In this document: positions 1 through 49,556 of the stretch, piece by piece | How positions within the stretch are numbered: position 1 is the first letter of the stretch | How the letters are laid out: each line of letters begins with the position of its first letter | Assembly: GCA_014695255.1 (NCBI GenBank) | Contig: JACJNX010000064.1 | Coordinates: 62,001 to 126,000, forward strand | Direction: 5' to 3' | Origin: Cyanobacteria bacterium FACHB-63 | Lineage (GTDB): Bacteria; Cyanobacteriota; Cyanobacteriia; Leptolyngbyales; Leptolyngbyaceae | Length of the DNA: 64,000 bases | Notes under the pieces: model-generated | Databases searched by the model: none | The model's input: the letters and a program-made list of their open reading frames with translations, nothing else | Told to the model about the DNA's origin: nothing | Translations under genes and position numbers: made by a program

Positions 1-924
1 ACTTTGACTTATGCAGAAAGCACAAAGTACGCGGCGCAGCTCCAATCAACAAAAGCAACTGCCGTCATTTTGCCTGCTAACGAAACCTTGCAGGCGATCG
101 CCACCGAGCGCGATTTAGCCTGGATTGTTGTCTCTCAGCCGCGTCTTGTTTTTGCTCAAGCGATCGCGCTATTTTACCAACCCTTCAAACCTGCGCCTAA
201 GATTCATCCAACTGCTGTGATCGATCCATCGGCTCAGATTGGCGAAGGGGTTTCGATCGGTGCTCACGTGGTGATTGAATCCGGTGTTAGAGTCGGTAAT
301 CACGCCTGCATTCATCCAAATGTTGTCGTTTATCCAGATGTAAGTATTGGCGATCGGACTGTGCTTCATGCTAACTGCACGATTCACGAACGCACTCAGA
401 TTGGTGCAGATTGTGTCATTCATGCAGGGGCAGTGATTGGATCAGAAGGTTTCGGGTTTGTGCCAACTCGCGAAGGCTGGCTGAAAATGGAGCAATCTGG
501 CTACACCGTGTTAGAAGATGGAGTTGAGGTTGGCTGTAATTCCGCGATCGATCGTCCCGCAGTTGGTGAAACTCGGATCGGACGCAACACCAAGATTGAT
601 AATCTCGCTCAAGTTGGGCATGGCGTGAAAGTGGGTGAAGCTTGTGCCTTTGCGGCTCAAGTTGGCATTGCAGGCGGATCGACGATCGGCAATCGTGTGA
701 TTCTAGGCGGACAGTCCGGAGTCGCGAACGAAGCCAAGATGGGAGACGGTTCGATCGCGTCGGCAAAAGCAGGCGTTCATGCAAACGTGAAACCGGGCGC
801 AATTATGTCAGGCTATCCGGCGGTAGAACATAAAATTTATCTCAAATCCTCAGCGATTTATAGTCGTCTATCTGAGATGTATCAAGCAATCAAACAGATT
901 CAAAAACGTCTCGATAATCATTAG
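1..924 (+). CDS. lpxD: UDP-3-O-acylglucosamine N-acyltransferase LpxD (5' end outside window)
   Basis: LpxD adds the second acyl chain to UDP-3-O-acyl-glucosamine in lipid A synthesis in the cytoplasm. The visible 307 codons hold the end of the N-terminal substrate-binding domain (to about residue 65), then a long run of left-handed beta-helix hexapeptide repeats such as [16 protein letters not shown] and IGNRVILGG, and a C-terminal helical tail. The probable catalytic histidine lies in QVGHGVKVG. The frame is open back to base 1 and full-length family members are about 340-350 residues. The TTG at base 4 is therefore probably internal and the true start lies upstream of the window. The divergent arsenic locus begins beyond its end. 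Confidence 0.93.
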
Positions 925-36956: not shown

Positions 36957-37589
36957 ATGACGCATACTCTGGTTTCTACTGCCTTTCGCGTTGGAATTGC
37001 GGGACCTGTCGGTTCTGGTAAAACCGCGCTCGTCGATGCACTCTGTAAAGCAATGCGCGATCGAGCCTCAATCGCGGTCGTCACCAATGATATTTACACC
37101 CAAGAAGATGCAAAGTTCTTGGTGCGATCGCAAGCATTGACTCCTGATCGCATTCTCGGAGTTGAAACCGGAGGCTGTCCACACACGGCAATCCGTGAAG
37201 ATGCGTCGATGAATTTAGCGGCGATCGACCAGCTTGAGCAGCGATTTGAGAACTTAGAGTTAATTTTTGTCGAGAGTGGCGGAGATAACTTAGCGGCAAC
37301 CTTTAGCCCTGAATTAGTTGACTTGAATATTTATGTGATTGATGTTGCAGGCGGCGACAAAATCCCCCGCAAAGGGGGTCCTGGAATTACAAAATCTGAT
37401 CTGCTTGTGATTAACAAAATCGATCTTGCTCCGTATGTAGGCGCAGATTTAGGCGTGATGGAGCGAGATGCAAAACAGATGCGGGGAGAAAAACCATTCG
37501 TGTTCACAAATCTCAAAACCCGTGTGGGACTAGATACAGTGATCGACTTTGTGACAACCTACGCAGGGATGAACCTAAAGCAAAAATAA
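36957..37589 (+). CDS. ureG: Urease accessory GTPase UreG
   Basis: UreG is the 210-residue GTPase that, with UreF and UreH, inserts nickel into urease. It has P-loop [18 protein letters not shown], the metal-site [19 protein letters not shown] (Cys-Pro-His), and the G-motifs FVESGGDN and [15 protein letters not shown]. It lies upstream of a urea transporter operon, so uptake and use genes are linked. The NtcA promoter lies between ureG and urtA, so ureG is probably transcribed separately. Confidence 0.97.
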
Positions 37590-37607
37590 CAAAACAATCA
37601 TTAAAAG

Positions 37608-37649
37608 GTAGTCTCGTATACAATCCCCTGAAAACCCAAGCCCTAGTAT
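37608..37649 (+). promoter_or_regulatory. NtcA-activated promoter of the urt operon
   Basis: GTA-N8-TAC at 37608-37621 matches the NtcA consensus exactly. The -10 element TAGTAT (form TA-N3-T) at 37644-37649 begins 22 nt after it, the canonical class II spacing. Transcription would begin near 37656, about 115 nt upstream of urtA. Confidence 0.85.
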
Positions 37650-37770
37650 TTCAGAGTTATTACTTAAAGCTTGAAACCGCGATGATTCTGCGACTCGCTC
37701 CTCCGCAGAAGCAATCTCGATTGGGATTGTCGATCGCCTGAGCTTGGATCAACCCTCTACACCTTTGGAT

Positions 37771-39090
37771 ATGACAAAATCATTTGGACGGCGCGAATTT
37801 ATTATCCTTGGCTCCACGGCGGCAGGAAGCGTTCTGTTAAAATCTTGTGGCGCTCCGCCTCAACAGGGATCAACGTCTGCAAGTTCTCCCGCAGCTTCGC
37901 CCGCAGCCAATACGACTGCATCAGGTAACACGATTAAAGTCGGCATTCTGCACTCGCTGTCGGGCACGATGTCGATCTCTGAAAAGAGCGTCGTCGATGC
38001 AGAACAACTTGCGATCGAAGAAATCAACAAAGCGGGCGGCGTGTTAGGTAAGCAAATCGAAGCAGTCATTGAAGATGGCAACTCCGATTGGCCCACCTTT
38101 GCTGAAAAAGCGAAGAAATTGATCGATCAAGACAAAGTAGCAACCGTCTTTGGCTGCTGGACTTCGGCAAGCCGCAAAGCGGTTCTGCCTGTGTTCGAGT
38201 CGAAGAAGCACTTGCTGTGGTATCCGGTGCAGTATGAAGGGCAAGAATGCTCGAACAACGTGTTCTACACGGGTGCAGCTCCCAACCAACAAATTGAGCC
38301 TTCAGTGGAATGGCTGCTGAAGAACAAAGGCAAAGAGTTCTTCTTGGTGGGTTCAGACTACGTGTTCCCACGTACCGCAAACACCATCATCAAAGCGCAA
38401 CTTGCGGCATTGGGCGGCACAACCAAGGGTGAAGATTACATTCCGCTCGGCAACACCGATGTTAAACCCGTTGTGGACAAAATCAAGCAAGCTCTGCCGA
38501 ATGGTGGCGTGATTTACAACAGCTTGAACGGTGACACCAACGTTGCCTTCTTCAAAGAACTGCAAGCATCGGGCTTGACTCCGGATAAGTATCCGTCGAT
38601 GTCGGTCAGTATCGCAGAAGAAGAAGTCAAAGCGATCGGTGTGGAATATCTCAAAGGACACTACGCCGCTTGGAACTACTTCCAGACTGTAGACACGCCC
38701 GCCAGCAAGAAGTTTGTTGACGCATTCAAGGCGAAATACGGCAGCGATCGCGTGGTCAACGACCCGATGGAAGCAGCTTACATCATGGTTTACCTGTGGA
38801 AGCAAGCGGTCGAAAAAGCCGGAACCGCTGACGATCTTGCGAAGGTGAAAACCGCCGCTTACGGTCAAACCTTTGATGCACCAGAAGGCAAGGTGACGAT
38901 GAACTCGAACCACCACTTGTCGAAGTTCGTGCGGATTGGTGAAGTCGCGCAAGACGGTCTCTTCAAGATCGTATCCGAAACCAAGGATGCGGTGAAACCT
39001 GTGCCGTGGAACCAGTTTGTGACAGAAACGAAGGGCTTTGCGTGCGACTGGTCTGACCCGGCGAAGGGCGGTAAGTATAAGACCACTTGA
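37771..39090 (+). CDS. urtA: Urea ABC transporter substrate-binding lipoprotein
   Basis: UrtA is the periplasmic urea-binding component. The 439-residue protein begins [14 protein letters not shown], a twin-arginine-like signal, and continues to LLKSCGAP, a lipobox-like site, so the mature protein is probably a lipoprotein. The Leu/Ile/Val-binding fold follows ([49 protein letters not shown]). ATG 37771 is preferred to the in-frame TTG at 37744. It is the first gene of urtABCDE behind an NtcA promoter. Confidence 0.95.
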
Positions 39091-39098
39091 TGAGTGGC

Positions 39099-39157
39099 AA
39101 GTAGGGAGTAGGGGAGTGGGGAGAGAAGAAGTCGGTTTTCTCCCCACTCCCTACTTT
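39099..39157. repeat. GC-rich imperfect hairpin between urtA and urtB
   Basis: Left arm 39099-39125 is built from AGTAGGGAGT and GGGGAGTGGGGAG units. The right arm, 39140-39157, carries the complement CTCCCCACTCCCTACTT. Short repeats of this composition are scattered in many cyanobacterial genomes. Within the urt operon it could lower downstream expression relative to urtA or protect its mRNA end. Confidence 0.65.
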
Positions 39158-39188
39158 TAGGAACACGGATTTAGACACGGAGAAAGCT

Positions 39189-40349
39189 TTGCTGTCAGGA
39201 CTTCTAAACGGGATTTTTAGCGGTGTTAGCGTTGGCTCGGTGTTGTTGTTGGCAGCATTGGGACTGGCGATCGTCTTCGGACTGATGGGCGTGATCAACA
39301 TGGCTCACGGGGAGTTGATGATGCTCGGTGCTTACACAACCTTTGTGGTGCAAAATGCGCTCAGACCGATGGGTGGAGTTTGGTTTGATATCTACATTTT
39401 TGTGGCGTTAATTGCAGCGTTTATTGTTACGGCGCTGTTTGGCATTGTTCTAGAACGCGGCGTGATTCGATATTTGTATGGGCGACCGTTAGAAACACTG
39501 CTGGCAACTTGGGGCGTGAGCTTGATTCTGCAACAGTTGGTGCGGAGTGTAAGTTGGCAATTAGTCACGCTGATCGCAATGTTTTGTGTGCTGTTTTTTG
39601 GCGCACTGTGGATTCTGGCGCGTCGTCCCAACTATGAGCAGATTCGCGGCTGGTCGATCGCAATTCTGCTGCCGCTATCGGCTGCGATCGCAATTGTCAC
39701 GGGCAATACGGTTGGGCAACTCTATGGATTAGCTGTCACCAAACCCTGGTTTGGCGCACAAAACGTCGATGTCACGGCTCCGCGTTGGCTGCGGGGGGGA
39801 TTGTCGATCGCGGGAACACAGCTATCGTATGCGCGGATTTTCATTATTGTGTTGACGATCGTGGCAGTGTTGGGTGTGTTTTGGTTCCTGAATAAAACGC
39901 CTTGGGGTTTGAGAATTCGGGCGGTGACTCAAAATCGCAGTATGAGCGCTTGTCTTGGGATTCCGACTCAGAAAGTGGATGCGCTGGCATTTGCGCTGGG
40001 ATCAGGACTGGCAGGAGTTGCGGGATGTGCGGTGAGCTTGCTCGGATCAGTGGGACCCAACACCGGACAGAACTATATTGTGGATACGTTCATGATCGTG
40101 GTCGTGGGTGGAGTCGGAAAGCTGGTCGGCAGCATTATTGCGGCATTAGCGATCGGCACTGCTAACTACATCATCGGATCGAATGTGTTAGTCGATGCGT
40201 TTAGCTTCTCTCCGCAACTGTCTGAATTTTTCAAGTTTTTCTCGACGATCAGTATGGCAAAGGTGATGGTGTTTGCATTGATCATTGTGTTTCTGCAATT
40301 CCGTCCAGCTGGGCTATTTCCGCAGAAAGGACGAACCGTGGATGCTTAG
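39189..40349 (+). CDS. urtB: Urea ABC transporter permease
   Basis: UrtB is one of two branched-chain-type permeases of the urea transporter, 386 residues with about 8-9 membrane spans. The typical openings are SVLLLAALGLAIVFGLMGVINMAHGELMMLGAY, and near the end GGVGKLVGSIIAALAIG. It uses a TTG start with GGAG upstream; no suitable ATG precedes the conserved MLSGLLNG-like opening. It is separated from urtA by a hairpin region. Confidence 0.95.
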   Translation: MLSGLLNGIFSGVSVGSVLLLAALGLAIVFGLMGVINMAHGELMMLGAYTTFVVQNALRPMGGVWFDIYIFVALIAAFIVTALFGIVLERGVIRYLYGRPLETLLATWGVSLILQQLVRSVSWQLVTLIAMFCVLFFGALWILARRPNYEQIRGWSIAILLPLSAAIAIVTGNTVGQLYGLAVTKPWFGAQNVDVTAPRWLRGGLSIAGTQLSYARIFIIVLTIVAVLGVFWFLNKTPWGLRIRAVTQNRSMSACLGIPTQKVDALAFALGSGLAGVAGCAVSLLGSVGPNTGQNYIVDTFMIVVVGGVGKLVGSIIAALAIGTANYIIGSNVLVDAFSFSPQLSEFFKFFSTISMAKVMVFALIIVFLQFRPAGLFPQKGRTVDA

Positions 40350-40361
40350 GGAGAAGTTGAC

Positions 40362-41537
40362 GTGAATAAAGAAGCGCCTTGGTGGAAGCAGAGATCGCTT
40401 TTAATTGAAGCGGGAGCCGTCGTGGTGATCGCGCTTGCGCTCATTTACATTGTGCCGAATTTGCTGGTCGGCATTGGGCAAGGGTTTCGAGTCGGATTGC
40501 TAGGGCGGTTTTTAGCGCTGGCGATCGTGGCTTTAGGAATTGATTTGATTTGGGGCTATACCGGAATTCTCAGCTTGGGACACGGTTTGTTTTTTGCGCT
40601 GGGCGGCTATAGTTTGGCGATGTTTTTGCAGTTGCAGATTCCGGCTGGTCAGTTGCCCGACTTCTTTACGCTGTATGGTGTGACCGAGCTTCCGGCGTTT
40701 TGGCTGCCGTTTTATTCGCTGCCGTTTACCGTATTTGCGATCGTGTTGCTGCCTGCGATCGTCGCGGCGATTCTTGGCTATTTGGTGTTCCGTAACCGGA
40801 TTCGCGGCGTTTATTTCTCGATCCTGACGCAAGCGGCGTTGATTGTGTTTTTTAACTTCTTCAACGGTCAGCAAAAGCTCATCAATGGTACGAACGGCTT
40901 GAAAACCGATACGACAACCTTTATGGGTCAAACGGTTGGCGATCCGTCGTTGCAGTGGTCGTTTTACATCCTGACCGTTTGGCTATTGGTGGGGGCTTAT
41001 GCGCTGTGTCGGTGGCTGACGAGCGGCAGACTGGGAAGGCTATTGGTTGCGATTCGCGACGATGAACCCCGGCTGAGATTTTCCGGCTATAACCCGACTG
41101 TGTTTAAGGTGCTGGTGTTTGCGGTGTCTGCTGGGCTTGCAGGAGTTTCGGGGGCATTGTTTACGGTGCAGTCTGGAATTATTTCACCGAAAGCGATGGA
41201 TATTGCGTTTTCGATCGAGATGGTGATCTGGGTGGCGGTTGGGGGTCGTGCAAGTTTAGTCGGCGCGATTCTGGGCGCATTGATTGTAAACTTCGCGAAA
41301 AGTATTCTCAGCGAACAGTTTCCGCAGTTCTGGTTCTTTTTCCAGGGTGCATTGTTCCTGATTGTGGTGACGCTAGTACCGGGCGGACTGATTGGATGGC
41401 TGCGTACCGATGGATTGGAGCTAGTTCGATCGCGGTTCCTCGGCAAGCGCAGACTAATGACCTATCCCAGCTTAGAAGAAGATCCGGAAGTGCAATATGA
41501 GCGAGAAAATCTTACAAATCGAAAATCTGACAGTTAG
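40362..41537 (+). CDS. urtC: Urea ABC transporter permease
   Basis: UrtC is the second permease, 391 residues. The start is GTG (MNKEAPWWKQRSL). The conserved LALAIVALGIDLIWGYTGILSLGHGLFFALGGY is early, and VFAVSAGLAGVSGALFTVQSG with GGRASLVGAILGAL are late. The gene lies 12 bp after urtB and its end overlaps urtD by 41 bp (41497-41537), consistent with tight coupling. Confidence 0.95.
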   Translation: MNKEAPWWKQRSLLIEAGAVVVIALALIYIVPNLLVGIGQGFRVGLLGRFLALAIVALGIDLIWGYTGILSLGHGLFFALGGYSLAMFLQLQIPAGQLPDFFTLYGVTELPAFWLPFYSLPFTVFAIVLLPAIVAAILGYLVFRNRIRGVYFSILTQAALIVFFNFFNGQQKLINGTNGLKTDTTTFMGQTVGDPSLQWSFYILTVWLLVGAYALCRWLTSGRLGRLLVAIRDDEPRLRFSGYNPTVFKVLVFAVSAGLAGVSGALFTVQSGIISPKAMDIAFSIEMVIWVAVGGRASLVGAILGALIVNFAKSILSEQFPQFWFFFQGALFLIVVTLVPGGLIGWLRTDGLELVRSRFLGKRRLMTYPSLEEDPEVQYERENLTNRKSDS

Positions 41538-42252
41538 TTTTGATGGCTTTAAGGCGATCAATAATCTCAACTTTGATCTCGATCGTGGCGAGTTGCGCGT
41601 TGTGATCGGACCTAACGGAGCCGGGAAAACAACGTTCCTAGATACCATTACAGGCAAAACGCAGCCGACGGTTGGAACGGTTTATTTCAAAGGACGCAAT
41701 ACCAAAGGCTTGAAAGAGCATGAGATCGCTCGGTTGGGTGTCGGGCGCAAGTTTCAGACTCCGCGTGTTTATCTCAATCTCACACCCCGCGAGAATTTGG
41801 AACTATCTTGCACTCGCGATAAGAATCTGTGGAATGCGATCGTGGGTAAGCGTCCGGTTGCAGAACAGCGCACTGTGGCGGGGTTGCTGGAAACGATCGG
41901 GCTTGACCTCAAAGCCGATATCAAAGCTGCATTGCTCTCTCACGGTGAAAAGCAACGTCTAGAAATTGGAATGCTCGTGGCTCAGTCACCGGAATTGCTT
42001 CTAGTCGATGAGCCTGTCGCGGGACTCACCGACGAAGAAACCGAGAAAGTCGGAGATTTGCTGTTAGCGCTGGCTGAAAGTCATTCGATCGTCGTGATCG
42101 AACACGACATGGAATTCGTTAGGCAGATCGCTCGGAGAGTGACGGTACTTCACCAAGGCAGTGTCTTATGTGAAGGCACAATGGACGAAGTCCAAAGCGA
42201 TCCGCGAGTGATTGAGGTTTATCTGGGTCAACAAGAAGATCACGCTGATTAG
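41497..42252 (+). CDS. urtD: Urea ABC transporter ATPase
   Basis: A 251-residue ATPase of the LivG type. Walker A is GPNGAGKTTFLD. The signature loop is LLSHGEKQRLEIGM, with SHGEKQ in place of LSGGQ, common in this family. Walker B is LLLVDEPVAGL and the switch is VVIEHDME. It pairs with UrtE at the inner face of the membrane. Confidence 0.96.
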   Translation: MSEKILQIENLTVSFDGFKAINNLNFDLDRGELRVVIGPNGAGKTTFLDTITGKTQPTVGTVYFKGRNTKGLKEHEIARLGVGRKFQTPRVYLNLTPRENLELSCTRDKNLWNAIVGKRPVAEQRTVAGLLETIGLDLKADIKAALLSHGEKQRLEIGMLVAQSPELLLVDEPVAGLTDEETEKVGDLLLALAESHSIVVIEHDMEFVRQIARRVTVLHQGSVLCEGTMDEVQSDPRVIEVYLGQQEDHAD

Positions 42253-42258
42253 AACACT

Positions 42259-43011
42259 ATGAGCTACACGAACACCACGCTAGAGCCAATGGGATCAAGT
42301 ACAGCAGCGCCAACGCTGCAAGTTTCTGATCTGAATGTGTATTACGGAGAAAGCCATATTCTTCGTGGCGTTGATATGACGGTGCAACCGGGCAAAATGG
42401 TTTGTCTGATCGGGCGAAATGGGGTTGGTAAAACGACGCTGCTGAAGTCGATCATGGGATTGCTGAAACCACGATCGGGGTCGATCGTGTTTGCCGGAGA
42501 ATCCGTCACCGCGAAGTCTCCGGATCAACGCGCTCGTCTTGGAATTGGCTACGTTCCACAAGGGCGAGAAGTGATTCCGCGCCTGACGGTGAAAGAAAAT
42601 CTGATTCTCGGACTCGAAGCGCTCCCGAAGCGGAAGAAAACGGCTGAGATTCCCGATGAGATCTTTGAACTGTTTCCGGTACTGAAAACGATGCTATGGC
42701 GCATGGGCGGAGATTTGAGCGGCGGACAACAGCAACAACTCGCGATCGCTCGTGCCTTGATGGGTCAGCCGCGCTTACTGGTGCTGGATGAGCCGACTGA
42801 GGGGATTCAACCGTCGATTATTCTGGAGATCGAAGCGGCTGTGCGTCGGATTATCGAAACGACTGGGATCTCGGTTTTGCTGGTGGAGCAGCATTTACAT
42901 TTTGTGCGCCAAGCGGATTGGTACTATGCGATGCAAAAAGGTGGAATTGTGGCATCGGGTTCGACTGAAGAACTGAGTAAAGATGTGGTGCAGCGATTTT
43001 TGGCGGTTTGA
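42259..43011 (+). CDS. urtE: Urea ABC transporter ATPase
   Basis: A 250-residue ATPase of the LivF type: Walker A GRNGVGKTTLLKS, signature DLSGGQQQQLAIARAL, Walker B LLVLDEPTEGIQ and switch VLLVEQHLH. The first 15 residues are not conserved in character, so the start could be MGSSTAAP at 42289. It is the last gene of urtABCDE and is followed by a repeat-rich tract. Confidence 0.95.
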   Translation: MSYTNTTLEPMGSSTAAPTLQVSDLNVYYGESHILRGVDMTVQPGKMVCLIGRNGVGKTTLLKSIMGLLKPRSGSIVFAGESVTAKSPDQRARLGIGYVPQGREVIPRLTVKENLILGLEALPKRKKTAEIPDEIFELFPVLKTMLWRMGGDLSGGQQQQLAIARALMGQPRLLVLDEPTEGIQPSIILEIEAAVRRIIETTGISVLLVEQHLHFVRQADWYYAMQKGGIVASGSTEELSKDVVQRFLAV

Positions 43012-43090: not shown

Positions 43091-43108
43091 CTTCGAGCCG
43101 TAGAGCGA

Positions 43109-43318
43109 GATTTTGGTTTTTTGGAGCAAGGTTTCGGCTTTTCAGAACAAGGTTTTGATTTTTCAGACCAACGTTTCGGTTTTTTAGAGCAAGGTTCCGG
43201 TTTTTCACAGCAAGGTTTCGGTTTTTTAGAGCAAGGTTTTGATTTCTTAGAGCAAGATTTTGGTTTTTCACAGCAAGGTTTCGGTTTTTTAGAGCAGGGT
43301 TTTGATTTCTTAGAGCAA
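43109..43318. repeat. 21-nt minisatellite, ten units
   Basis: Ten contiguous 21-nt units between urtE and the convergent gene, for example 43214-43234 and 43277-43297. In one frame the unit would read G-F-(G/D)-F-(L/S)-(E/Q)-Q and on the other strand N-L-A-L-K-N-R. Units 6-8 (63 nt) are nearly duplicated as units 9-10, so the array grew in 63-nt steps. No start signal or known family supports translation. Confidence 0.85.
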
Positions 43319-44171: not shown

Positions 44172-44882
44172 CTAACGCGAAACCTCAATGCGATCGAACT
44201 CCCCCTGTCTCACATCCGCCTGCTCTAATTTCTGCAACGAACTCAGCGCCAAAAATCCAAATCCCACTTTTGCCGCAACATCGAGAATGGTATAAAACGC
44301 TGTCTCAGTCGTACTGTTAATGGCATTGATTCCAGTTCCCGCCAGAATCCACACGACCGGATACAGCGACCAAATAACTAAATGCACAGTAAGCAAGCGA
44401 TTAAACACAGACTTCGATCGTGGATAAGCGTCGATCGCTTGATTGCGATAATGCTTTAGCAATAAATACGCCAGCCCCAAATAAAAACCACAACTGACGA
44501 TATACCAAAGGTTCGTAATCGGCTTCGGCGAAATCGCAGCTACAAACCCCGTCGCAATCATCAACACATCCGCCCCGATCATACTGGCAAGAATAATCGG
44601 CTTTGTTTTGCCTAAATAACTCAGCAATACGATCGTCAACGGAGTCGAGAACGTCCAAGTGATATAGCGCACCCAGAAGGTGGGACGATCGAAGATCACG
44701 TTAAACCCTTGGCGCTGCGTCATTGCGAGATATAGCACTGCTGCGATCGCGCAGATAAAAAAGTTCAGTACATAAACGACTTGCCAGCGATCGTTTTTCG
44801 CTCGTTCTGCTCCAAATCCGAAAAAGATTGCTCCTGCGGTCATACTGAGACAACCGAGCCAAAGCCATGCCTGTTGTGTCAT
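44172..44882 (-). CDS. Microbial (type 1) rhodopsin, probable light-driven anion pump with T-S-L motif
   Basis: A 236-residue seven-helix retinal protein. The Schiff-base lysine is K205 in LDVAAKVGFGF, with the counter-ion Asp D201. Helix C reads RYITWTFSTPLTIVLL: R72 is conserved, and the positions of bacteriorhodopsin D85, T89 and D96 are T75, S79 and L86. Helix F has IWSLYPVVWILAGTG. Thr-Ser at the first two positions is the hallmark of chloride-pumping halorhodopsins (TSA in archaea, TSD in known cyanobacterial pumps). Leu at the third is neither. Proton pumping is unlikely without D85. It is a lone gene with no retinal-forming oxygenase nearby. Confidence 0.92.
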   Translation of the reverse strand: MTQQAWLWLGCLSMTAGAIFFGFGAERAKNDRWQVVYVLNFFICAIAAVLYLAMTQRQGFNVIFDRPTFWVRYITWTFSTPLTIVLLSYLGKTKPIILASMIGADVLMIATGFVAAISPKPITNLWYIVSCGFYLGLAYLLLKHYRNQAIDAYPRSKSVFNRLLTVHLVIWSLYPVVWILAGTGINAINSTTETAFYTILDVAAKVGFGFLALSSLQKLEQADVRQGEFDRIEVSR

Positions 44883-48539: not shown

Positions 48540-49556
48540 GTGGGTATCGTAGTACAGGACGTTTCTAAACGCTTTGGGAGCTTTCAAGCGGTCGATCAGG
48601 TCAGTTTAGAAATTAAAAGTGGTTCGCTGGTGGCGCTGTTAGGTCCGTCAGGTTCAGGCAAATCAACGCTGTTGCGCTTGATCTCAGGGTTAGAGAATCC
48701 CGACTCCGGACGAATTTTCCTTACTGGTGAAGATGCCACCGATCGCAGCGTCCAAGACCGCAACATTGGCTTTGTGTTCCAGCATTACGCCCTGTTCAAG
48801 CATTTGACTGTACGGAAAAACATCGCCTTCGGCATGGAGATTCGCAAGTATCCTCCTGATAAAGCGAAGAAGCGAGTCGAGGAGTTGCTGGATTTGGTGC
48901 AGTTAGCGGGAATGGGCGATCGCTATCCGTCTCAGCTCTCGGGGGGCCAACGGCAACGCATCGCCCTAGCTCGCGCGCTCGCGGTCGAACCGAAAGTCCT
49001 ACTGCTCGATGAACCGTTCGGAGCGCTCGATGCCAAGGTGCGGAAAGATTTGCGGGCTTGGCTGCGACGACTGCACGATGAAGTCCATGTCACGACCGTA
49101 TTTGTGACGCACGACCAAGAAGAAGCAATGGAAGTCGCCGACGAGATTGTGGTGATGAATAAAGGCAAGGTTGAGCAAATCGGAACGCCTGCGAATGTTT
49201 ATGATCATCCGGCGACTGCATTTGTGATGAGCTTTATTGGTCCTGTGAATGTGTTGCCGAGTTCGTCGCGAATCTTCCAAAACAACGGCTTTGACTCTGC
49301 GCATCCTGAAATGTTCTTGCGTCCGCATGATGTCGTTGTAGAAACGTCTCCGAACGGATCAACGGTTTCAGCGCGAGTCACACGATTAATTCACCTGGGC
49401 TGGGAAGTTCAGGCAGAATTGACGCTCGATGATGGGCAAGTGGTGACAGCGCATTTGACCCGCGATCGCTTCGATGAGTTGAAGCTCTCCCCGGATCAGC
49501 GTGTCTACGTCAAACCCAAGGACGCAAAATCATTTCCGCTGTACTATTCAATCTAG
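48540..49556 (+). CDS. cysA: Sulfate/thiosulfate ABC transporter ATPase
   Basis: A 338-residue importer ATPase: Walker [14 protein letters not shown]-loop [13 protein letters not shown], signature [16 protein letters not shown], Walker [19 protein letters not shown], and a C-terminal regulatory TOBE-like domain with [11 protein letters not shown]. The [20 protein letters not shown] stretch is typical of CysA. The GTG start at 48540 is used. No cysT/W/P genes are adjacent, so it must assemble with permeases encoded elsewhere. Confidence 0.93.

Follow-up and report, generated by a model that had tools for sequence, protein, structure and literature searches.

A conserved TSL branch of the cyanobacterial halorhodopsins and its suggestive association with urea genes

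Introduction

The closest described systems to the protein analysed here are two cyanobacterial halorhodopsins (CyHRs) that carry Thr, Ser and Asp (TSD) at the three motif positions of helix C, MrHR (MastR) of Mastigocladopsis repens, which pumps Cl- and Br-, and SyHR of Synechocystis, which takes Cl-, Br- and sulfate. In SyHR the chloride is coordinated by T74, by S78 and by a water bonding with the Schiff base and D201, and N39 bonds with both the motif Asp and S212 (PMC9617919; here and below, citations refer to parts of the texts concerned). The role of this cytoplasmic Asp in cyanobacterial anion pumps was described as unclear in the same source.

Variants at the third position have already been described. 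TSL, TSV and TSI were named as variants of the TSD clade in PMC5877348 and PMC9617919, the former crediting the TSL variant to Harris et al. 2018. The TTV protein of Myxosarcina sp. GI1, which has no Asp at the third position, is a Cl- pump (557 nm), and the TSV CyHR of Cyanothece PCC 7425 binds retinal (566 nm) without transporting ions to a substantial extent in E. coli; both were placed in the subfamily of MrHR-type pumps (PMC7979833). RmHR, a TSA rhodopsin from a marine bacterium, pumps Cl- inward (PMC5877348). In the parts of the literature on TSL and cyanobacterial rhodopsins that we covered, the TSL variant was named only in PMC5877348 and PMC9617919, and we found no transport test of any TSL protein; the sections of two papers that count 31 (PMC11528372) and 24 (PMC7541481) CyHR genes name no TSL protein. 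The motifs TST and SSI are likewise not mentioned in the text covered. The original prediction had placed the TSL motif outside the known types, a claim that is not supported, since the motif was already in print in PMC5877348 and PMC9617919.

Here we describe a TSL rhodopsin encoded in a 64,000-nucleotide stretch of a cyanobacterial genome (hereafter the window). The new elements are a set of co-varying residues, a TST sister group with Gln at the colour-switch position and a urea-gene neighbourhood, and not the motif itself.

A TSL Rhodopsin With an Unshifted Motif

An open reading frame on the reverse strand of the window (44172-44882; 236 codons from an ATG start) encodes a retinal protein of 236 aa and seven helices, a TSL-type CyHR. 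The frame, its strand and residues R72, T75, S79, T83, L86, D201 and K205 were all present as predicted. Bac_rhodopsin (PF01036; E 5.5e-47, residues 2-217) was the one Pfam family recovered, and no NCBIfam family matched. The best five PDB sequence matches were MrHR, MrHR mutants and SyHR (E 1.2e-83 to 1.9e-82, with MrHR at 1.2e-83 and SyHR at 4.4e-83), and the next PDB family, a cyanorhodopsin, followed at 5.6e-44. Residues 4-223 aligned without gaps to residues 3-222 of MrHR, and the alignment to SyHR contained a single gap, well after helix C.

An AlphaFold model was computed from a 50-row alignment from which some near-copies and all PDB sequences were left out (mean pLDDT 93.3, pTM 0.88). 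The predicted model superposed on MrHR (6xl3; residues 2..224 on 1..223) with an rmsd of 0.6 and a Z of 36.8, and on SyHR (7zou) with an rmsd of 0.9 and a Z of 36.3; fold Z values were 36.0-36.9 against MrHR and SyHR entries and 34.5 or lower against all others, and Foldseek agreed with these superpositions. Since sequence alignment and model superposition agreed, T75, S79 and L86 correspond to T74, S78 and D85 of MrHR, and they occupy the positions of D85, T89 and D96 in bacteriorhodopsin (BR). A shift of the motif register was ruled out by the gapless helix C alignment and the structural superposition, and the T-S-L reading of the original prediction held.

The codons of the main functional positions all lie on the reverse strand. 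R72 (44667-44669) corresponds to SyHR R71, the anion-binding arginine (PMC11995866); T75 (44658-44660; BR D85, SyHR T74) provides a neutral side chain at the position of the carboxylate counterion, and S79 (44646-44648; BR T89, SyHR S78) belongs by homology to the Cl- site. T83 (44634-44636) sits at the colour-switch position, BR L93 and proteorhodopsin 105, and L86 (44625-44627; BR D96, SyHR D85) is the third motif residue. D105 (44568-44570; SyHR N104) matches BR D115, H167 (44382-44384; SyHR H167) is a hallmark of the clade (PMC9617919, PMC11995866), and T183 (44334-44336; SyHR T183, MrHR E182) lies at the position that governs sulfate pumping (PMC9525653). The codons of D201 to K205 (44268-44282) cover the counterion Asp and the retinal lysine, with A204 (BR A215) between them.

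The protein is 57% identical to SyHR in the Foldseek alignment and shares with it the Cl- site, H167, T183 and E193, but differs (SyHR residue first) at D85/L86, L82/T83, N104/D105, S204/A204, T137/L137 and S212/A212. With MrHR (55-56% identity, rmsd 0.6-0.8) it has in common the Cl- site and the His, and the differences are D85/L86, L82/T83, N104/D105, S203/A204, E182/T183 and N63/F64.

Phylogeny and Class Assignment

Overlapping genome searches by order, class and family, covering at most 719 distinct genomes, some of them sampled from larger groups, yielded 43 CyHR proteins, which with MrHR and SyHR made 45 rows. Their motifs were TSD in 21 rows (MrHR and SyHR included), TSL in 13, TSI in four, TST, TSV and SSI in two each and TTV in one. 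Seven TSL rows, including that of the window itself, are from as many genomes of its genus; four are from genomes of two other genera in the same family, and the others from one genome each in two further families (G414, G684). The TSL carriers named in the genome_contigs scan were Phormidium tanganyikae FI6-MK23 and Pseudanabaenaceae cyanobacterium LEGE 13415, whose proteins are identical to rows L014 and L015; their duplicates (L005, L006) were omitted, as were a 41-residue TSL-like fragment (L029) and two broken or partial TSD-like sequences (L064, L075). Distant rhodopsin loci such as L027, L028, L030, L031, L033, L034 and L038-L041 lie outside the tree described below. A viral or plasmid origin was rejected: no relative was found in viral_contigs, and plasmids gave only distant rhodopsins (24-37% identity).

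In the 62-row maximum-likelihood tree, the 45 CyHR rows formed a clade with support 100/100, apart from archaeal halorhodopsins and cyanorhodopsins (CyR), which bears out the proposed membership of the cyanobacterial anion-pump clade; the long branches at the CyR-CyHR junction leave the CyHR clade itself unaffected. The 13 TSL rows were monophyletic (98/91) and the TST pair was their sister group (91/94, below the tool's star). A second tree, with columns 75, 79, 83, 86, 105 and 204 blanked and the long outgroups removed, again recovered the TSL clade (99/93), the TST sister group (87/85) and the CyHR clade (100/98). Leu at the third position thus marks a distinct subgroup, as had been suggested. 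The accompanying statement that known cyanobacterial chloride pumps have Asp at this position is incomplete, as some known cyanobacterial relatives carry another residue there. The blanked-column tree required at least three changes for the acid at the third position, two for residue 105 and two for residue 83, although the CyHR backbone is weak and, counting starred branches only, a single change is required, that of the TSD group. It is likely that the Asp was lost repeatedly within the CyHRs.

Several characters concur in placing the window rhodopsin among the CyHRs: K205 in helix G of a Bac_rhodopsin fold, the Thr-Ser pair (T75, S79) replacing the Asp-Thr of proton pumps at BR 85/89, the grouping with MrHR and SyHR, and the His at SyHR 167. 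The latter was present in 45/45 CyHR rows and absent from two archaeal halorhodopsins, four BR and four CyR, and it is said to be confined to the CyHR clade (PMC9617919). With Thr, Ser and Leu at BR 85/89/96 the protein is of the TSL variant, and because of L86, where MrHR and SyHR have the Asp of the TSD subtype, we filed it outside that type. The two archaeal halorhodopsin rows (TSA; L082, L085) share the Thr-Ser pair, D105 and A204 with the TSL proteins, but they form a separate branch, with Thr at the H167 position and Ala where the window rhodopsin has L86. An archaeal halorhodopsin origin was ruled out by the tree, though these sequences sit on a long branch.

Proton-pumping cyanorhodopsins have Asp at BR 85, where the window rhodopsin has T75. 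That it should be an outward proton pump is extremely improbable: a single T-to-D change converts MrHR into one (PMC9617919) and CyR relatives pump protons, but neither the BR D85 nor the BR D96 position carries an acidic residue here. The window rhodopsin is a member of a real, conserved TSL branch of a known pump family.

Residues Marking the TSL Clade and Colour Tuning

L86, M101 and L137 were each found in 13/13 TSL rows and in none of the 30 CyHRs outside the TSL and TST groups. Position 83 is Thr in all 13 TSL rows, Gln in both TST rows and Leu in all 30 others, so that Thr at the BR Leu93 position is indeed unusual, as first pointed out from the sequence. D105 is shared by the TSL (13/13) and TST (2/2) proteins and replaced by Asn in the 30 others, Asp being also present in two archaeal halorhodopsins, four BR and four CyR. 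A204 occurs in 13/13 TSL, 2/2 TST and 2/30 other rows, and A212 in ten of the 13 TSL rows, the remaining three having Ser. Compared with the Asp-N39-S212 chain of SyHR, the TSL clade thus retains N40, without the Asp and mostly without the Ser. Besides N40, invariant residues in the 13 TSL rows were R72, Y73, T75, W76, S79, T80, H167, W171, Y174, W178, T183, E193, Y197, D201, K205 and F208, T183 being also present in 12 of the 21 TSD rows. The Myxosarcina TTV and Cyanothece TSV proteins likewise have a non-acidic third position, but with Val instead of Leu; the TSV and TTV rows of our set, which are unmatched to the accessions of PMC7979833, have Leu at 83 and Asn at 105. In the two SSI-motif CyHRs (L062 and L063, from genomes G498 and G509), the first motif residue is Ser instead of Thr, and Y197 is exchanged for Val.

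L86 is encoded by five different Leu codons across the 13 orthologous rows. The dN/dS ratio (Nei-Gojobori) was 0.041-0.078 in 12 pairs, 11 within TSL and one TST, values that are rough, with dS ranging from 0.31 to 2.86 and exceeding 1 in nine of the 12; dS was saturated in a thirteenth pair. The TSL genes are maintained under purifying selection. A sequencing error, a chance occurrence or a pseudogene was ruled out by the conservation of L86 and T83 in orthologues together with the low dN/dS. A natural Leu clade that keeps the rest of the anion site under purifying selection tests the role of the Asp beyond what a point mutant can do.

At the position equivalent to 83, BR Leu93 and proteorhodopsin 105, a change from Leu to Gln shifts absorption from green to blue (PMC10807816, PMC6197263), and a polar residue at 83 should produce a blue-shift. 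SyHR and MrHR absorb maximally at 536-537 nm. Ala instead of Ser at 204 is expected to give a red-shift of 9-20 nm (PMC7979833). BR Asp115 bonds with Thr90 beside the retinal (PMC3411786); D105 and T80 are the counterparts of these two residues. Blue proteorhodopsin, defined by the L/Q switch at 105, has the same Gln as the TST pair but is a proton pump, and the TSL proteins have Thr. The TST pair could be used to test the L/Q colour rule in anion pumps.

Urea Genes Around TSL and TST Rhodopsins

In the window, a ureG-urtA-urtB-urtC-urtD-urtE array (36957-43011, forward strand), coding for a urea ABC transporter and a urease accessory GTPase, is the convergent neighbour of the rhodopsin gene, whose end lies 1,160 bases past urtE (42259-43011). 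We surveyed 42 rhodopsin contexts, including flanking sequence up to about 10 kb long. The ureG-urtABCDE genes adjoin the rhodopsin in five orthologues as well (89-97% identity), thus in 6/6 with the window; the four orthologues with long flanks show the same convergent gene set as the window, the nearest urt gene being at most 2.5 kb away, and the fifth, on a 3.4-kb contig, includes only urtE and the start of urtD. In both TST genomes (G133, locus L101, 8546-17811; G150, locus L102) the order was ureE-ureF-rhodopsin-ureG-urtABCDE on a single strand, the gap between ureF and the rhodopsin gene being 143 and 145 bases and that between the rhodopsin gene and ureG about 570 and 450 bases. Among the other TSL contexts, G414 has a lone ureE 4.7 kb off with other genes between, and in G037 (L095, 5590-10301) genes for CbiM, CbiQ and an ABC protein are adjacent and convergent to the rhodopsin. 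By family the latter is a metal uptake system, which may handle cobalt rather than nickel.

No ure or urt genes were present in the flanks of the TSL rows G038, G684, G029, G030 and G022, nor in any of the 28 contexts of other CyHRs, flanks being cut by contig ends in G684, G030 and several of the 28. With placements grouped by eye and gene families picked after the neighbours had been seen, urea-gene placements numbered 3/8 for TSL/TST (4/8 with CbiMQ, the CbiM/CbiQ and UreE_b queries deriving from the loci they match) against 0 of about 17 for the others. Fisher's test gave p 0.028 (0.0066 with CbiMQ) against 16 others, uncorrected for the post hoc choice of families. Two genomes were sampled at even intervals in 40 stretches of 20 kb, one of which had a match, to Urt-like paralogues at 48-49%; compared with these stretches, p was 0.012 (0.0017 with CbiMQ), again uncorrected for that choice.

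The gene for urease itself, ureC, lies on another contig of the window's genome. GTAN8TAC, which we take to be the NtcA-type motif, was found twice within 350 bases upstream of the 43 loci, against 4.3 expected by shuffling, and hence gave no sign of nitrogen control; promoter and terminator scans gave no excess over shuffles. In L101 a terminator-like stem follows the rhodopsin gene, which makes a single transcript into ureG doubtful at that locus. The link between rhodopsin and urea genes is thus a suggestive association, a post hoc lead and not one demonstrated system.

A broader reading, quite unlikely in our opinion as a whole, is that the TSL and TST proteins make up a physiological class of their own among anion pumps, connected with the use of urea. 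They would have dropped the cytoplasmic Asp, gained a polar colour-switch residue and, with D105, a buried Asp, and on more than one occasion come to lie next to genes for urea uptake, urease maturation or metal uptake; there, anions imported in the light could offset the charge of the ammonium released from urea. If the urea link is real, it would give a hint to the cellular role of TSL and TST pumps.

Proposed Function

The window rhodopsin, a CyHR, probably uses light to pump anions into the cell, Cl- and Br- being the most likely ones. Inward pumping of these ions is the best inference because the matching residues of SyHR and MrHR are kept. The Cl- pumping of the Myxosarcina TTV protein, which also lacks the Asp (PMC7979833), and the inward Cl- pumping of the TSA protein RmHR (PMC5877348) speak in its favour. 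Sequence, register, predicted fold, clade, residue conservation and purifying selection were established on the window rhodopsin and its relatives, and binding, direction, ion and mechanism were carried over by inference from MrHR and SyHR. In the dark, T75, S79, R72 and D201 would hold an anion next to the protonated Schiff base of retinal, and this anion would stand in for a carboxylate counterion. In the light, retinal would isomerise on K205, the anion would move to the cytoplasmic side and exit near H167, and a fresh anion would enter on the external side; at this entrance T183 replaces the acidic residue of MrHR. The cytoplasmic-side helix C Asp of MrHR and SyHR being Leu, the TSL branch would have to pump without it. 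Four carotenoid oxygenase-family genes in the same genome could provide the retinal.

The differences of the TSL proteins beyond the motif (T83, M101, D105, L137, A204 and mostly A212) count against a pump. Moreover, a protein without the Asp is not necessarily a functional pump, since the Cyanothece PCC 7425 TSV protein lacked substantial transport (PMC7979833), and this Asp has been proposed to block chloride back-flow (PMC9617919). The protein could bind retinal and an anion while pumping weakly or not at all, as a light sensor or slow switch, the more so as T83 sits at the position of BR L93, where substitution by Ala gives a long-lived O state (PMC3411786). We consider this unlikely: the TTV relative pumps without the Asp (PMC7979833), and all 13 TSL rows keep H167, R72, E193 and the Cl- site unchanged. 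No transducer-like gene recurred among 13 TSL/TST contexts, in which the families present in at least four, besides rhodopsin, were ureG, urtA, urtB, urtC, merged ABC ATPases and two genes beyond urt. BR L93A did not lose transport efficiency (PMC3411786; this mutant is also treated in PMC10743670, and the cytoplasmic pathway in PMC12538430), and TSL kinetics may differ because T83 occupies this position.

T183, a non-acidic residue tied to sulfate pumping, is found in 13/13 TSL rows; making it acidic in SyHR lowers sulfate activity (PMC9525653). R72 and E193 are also kept. In SyHR, sulfate transport falls to 8% and chloride transport to 65% with R71A, and both fall to about 30% with H167A (PMC11995866). 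Sulfate transport by the window rhodopsin is thus possible, judging from these residues, and less likely than chloride transport. Together with the urea and urease neighbours in several lineages, T183 could even suggest that another anion, whether sulfate, nitrate or a product of urea use, is the main cargo. This appears very unlikely, given that the Cl- site residues are the same as in MrHR and SyHR and that T183 is not peculiar to the TSL clade, being shared with the majority of TSD rows. Furthermore, making MrHR E182 neutral (E182T) raised relative sulfate activity only from 0.008 to 0.092 (PMC9525653). F64 and P119, which replace A63 and A118 of SyHR, also count against sulfate, although altering A63/A118 in SyHR left sulfate pumping unaffected (PMC9525653). 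Import of Cl- or Br- remains our preferred reading.

Other Features of the Genome and the Window

Three more rhodopsin loci were found in the same genome (L001, L002 and L003, on contigs C57, C128 and C61). Two of them are xenorhodopsin-like DTS copies, their loci being 95% identical over 2,253 aligned bases, and the third extra copy has an internal stop. Within the window, a 21-base tandem array of 10.4 copies (43101-43318) lies between urtE and a 163-codon open reading frame; both of its strands are open and would encode a low-complexity peptide. A sulfate-type ABC transporter ATPase by sequence, presumably CysA-like, is encoded at 48540-49556, 3.7 kb from the rhodopsin gene.
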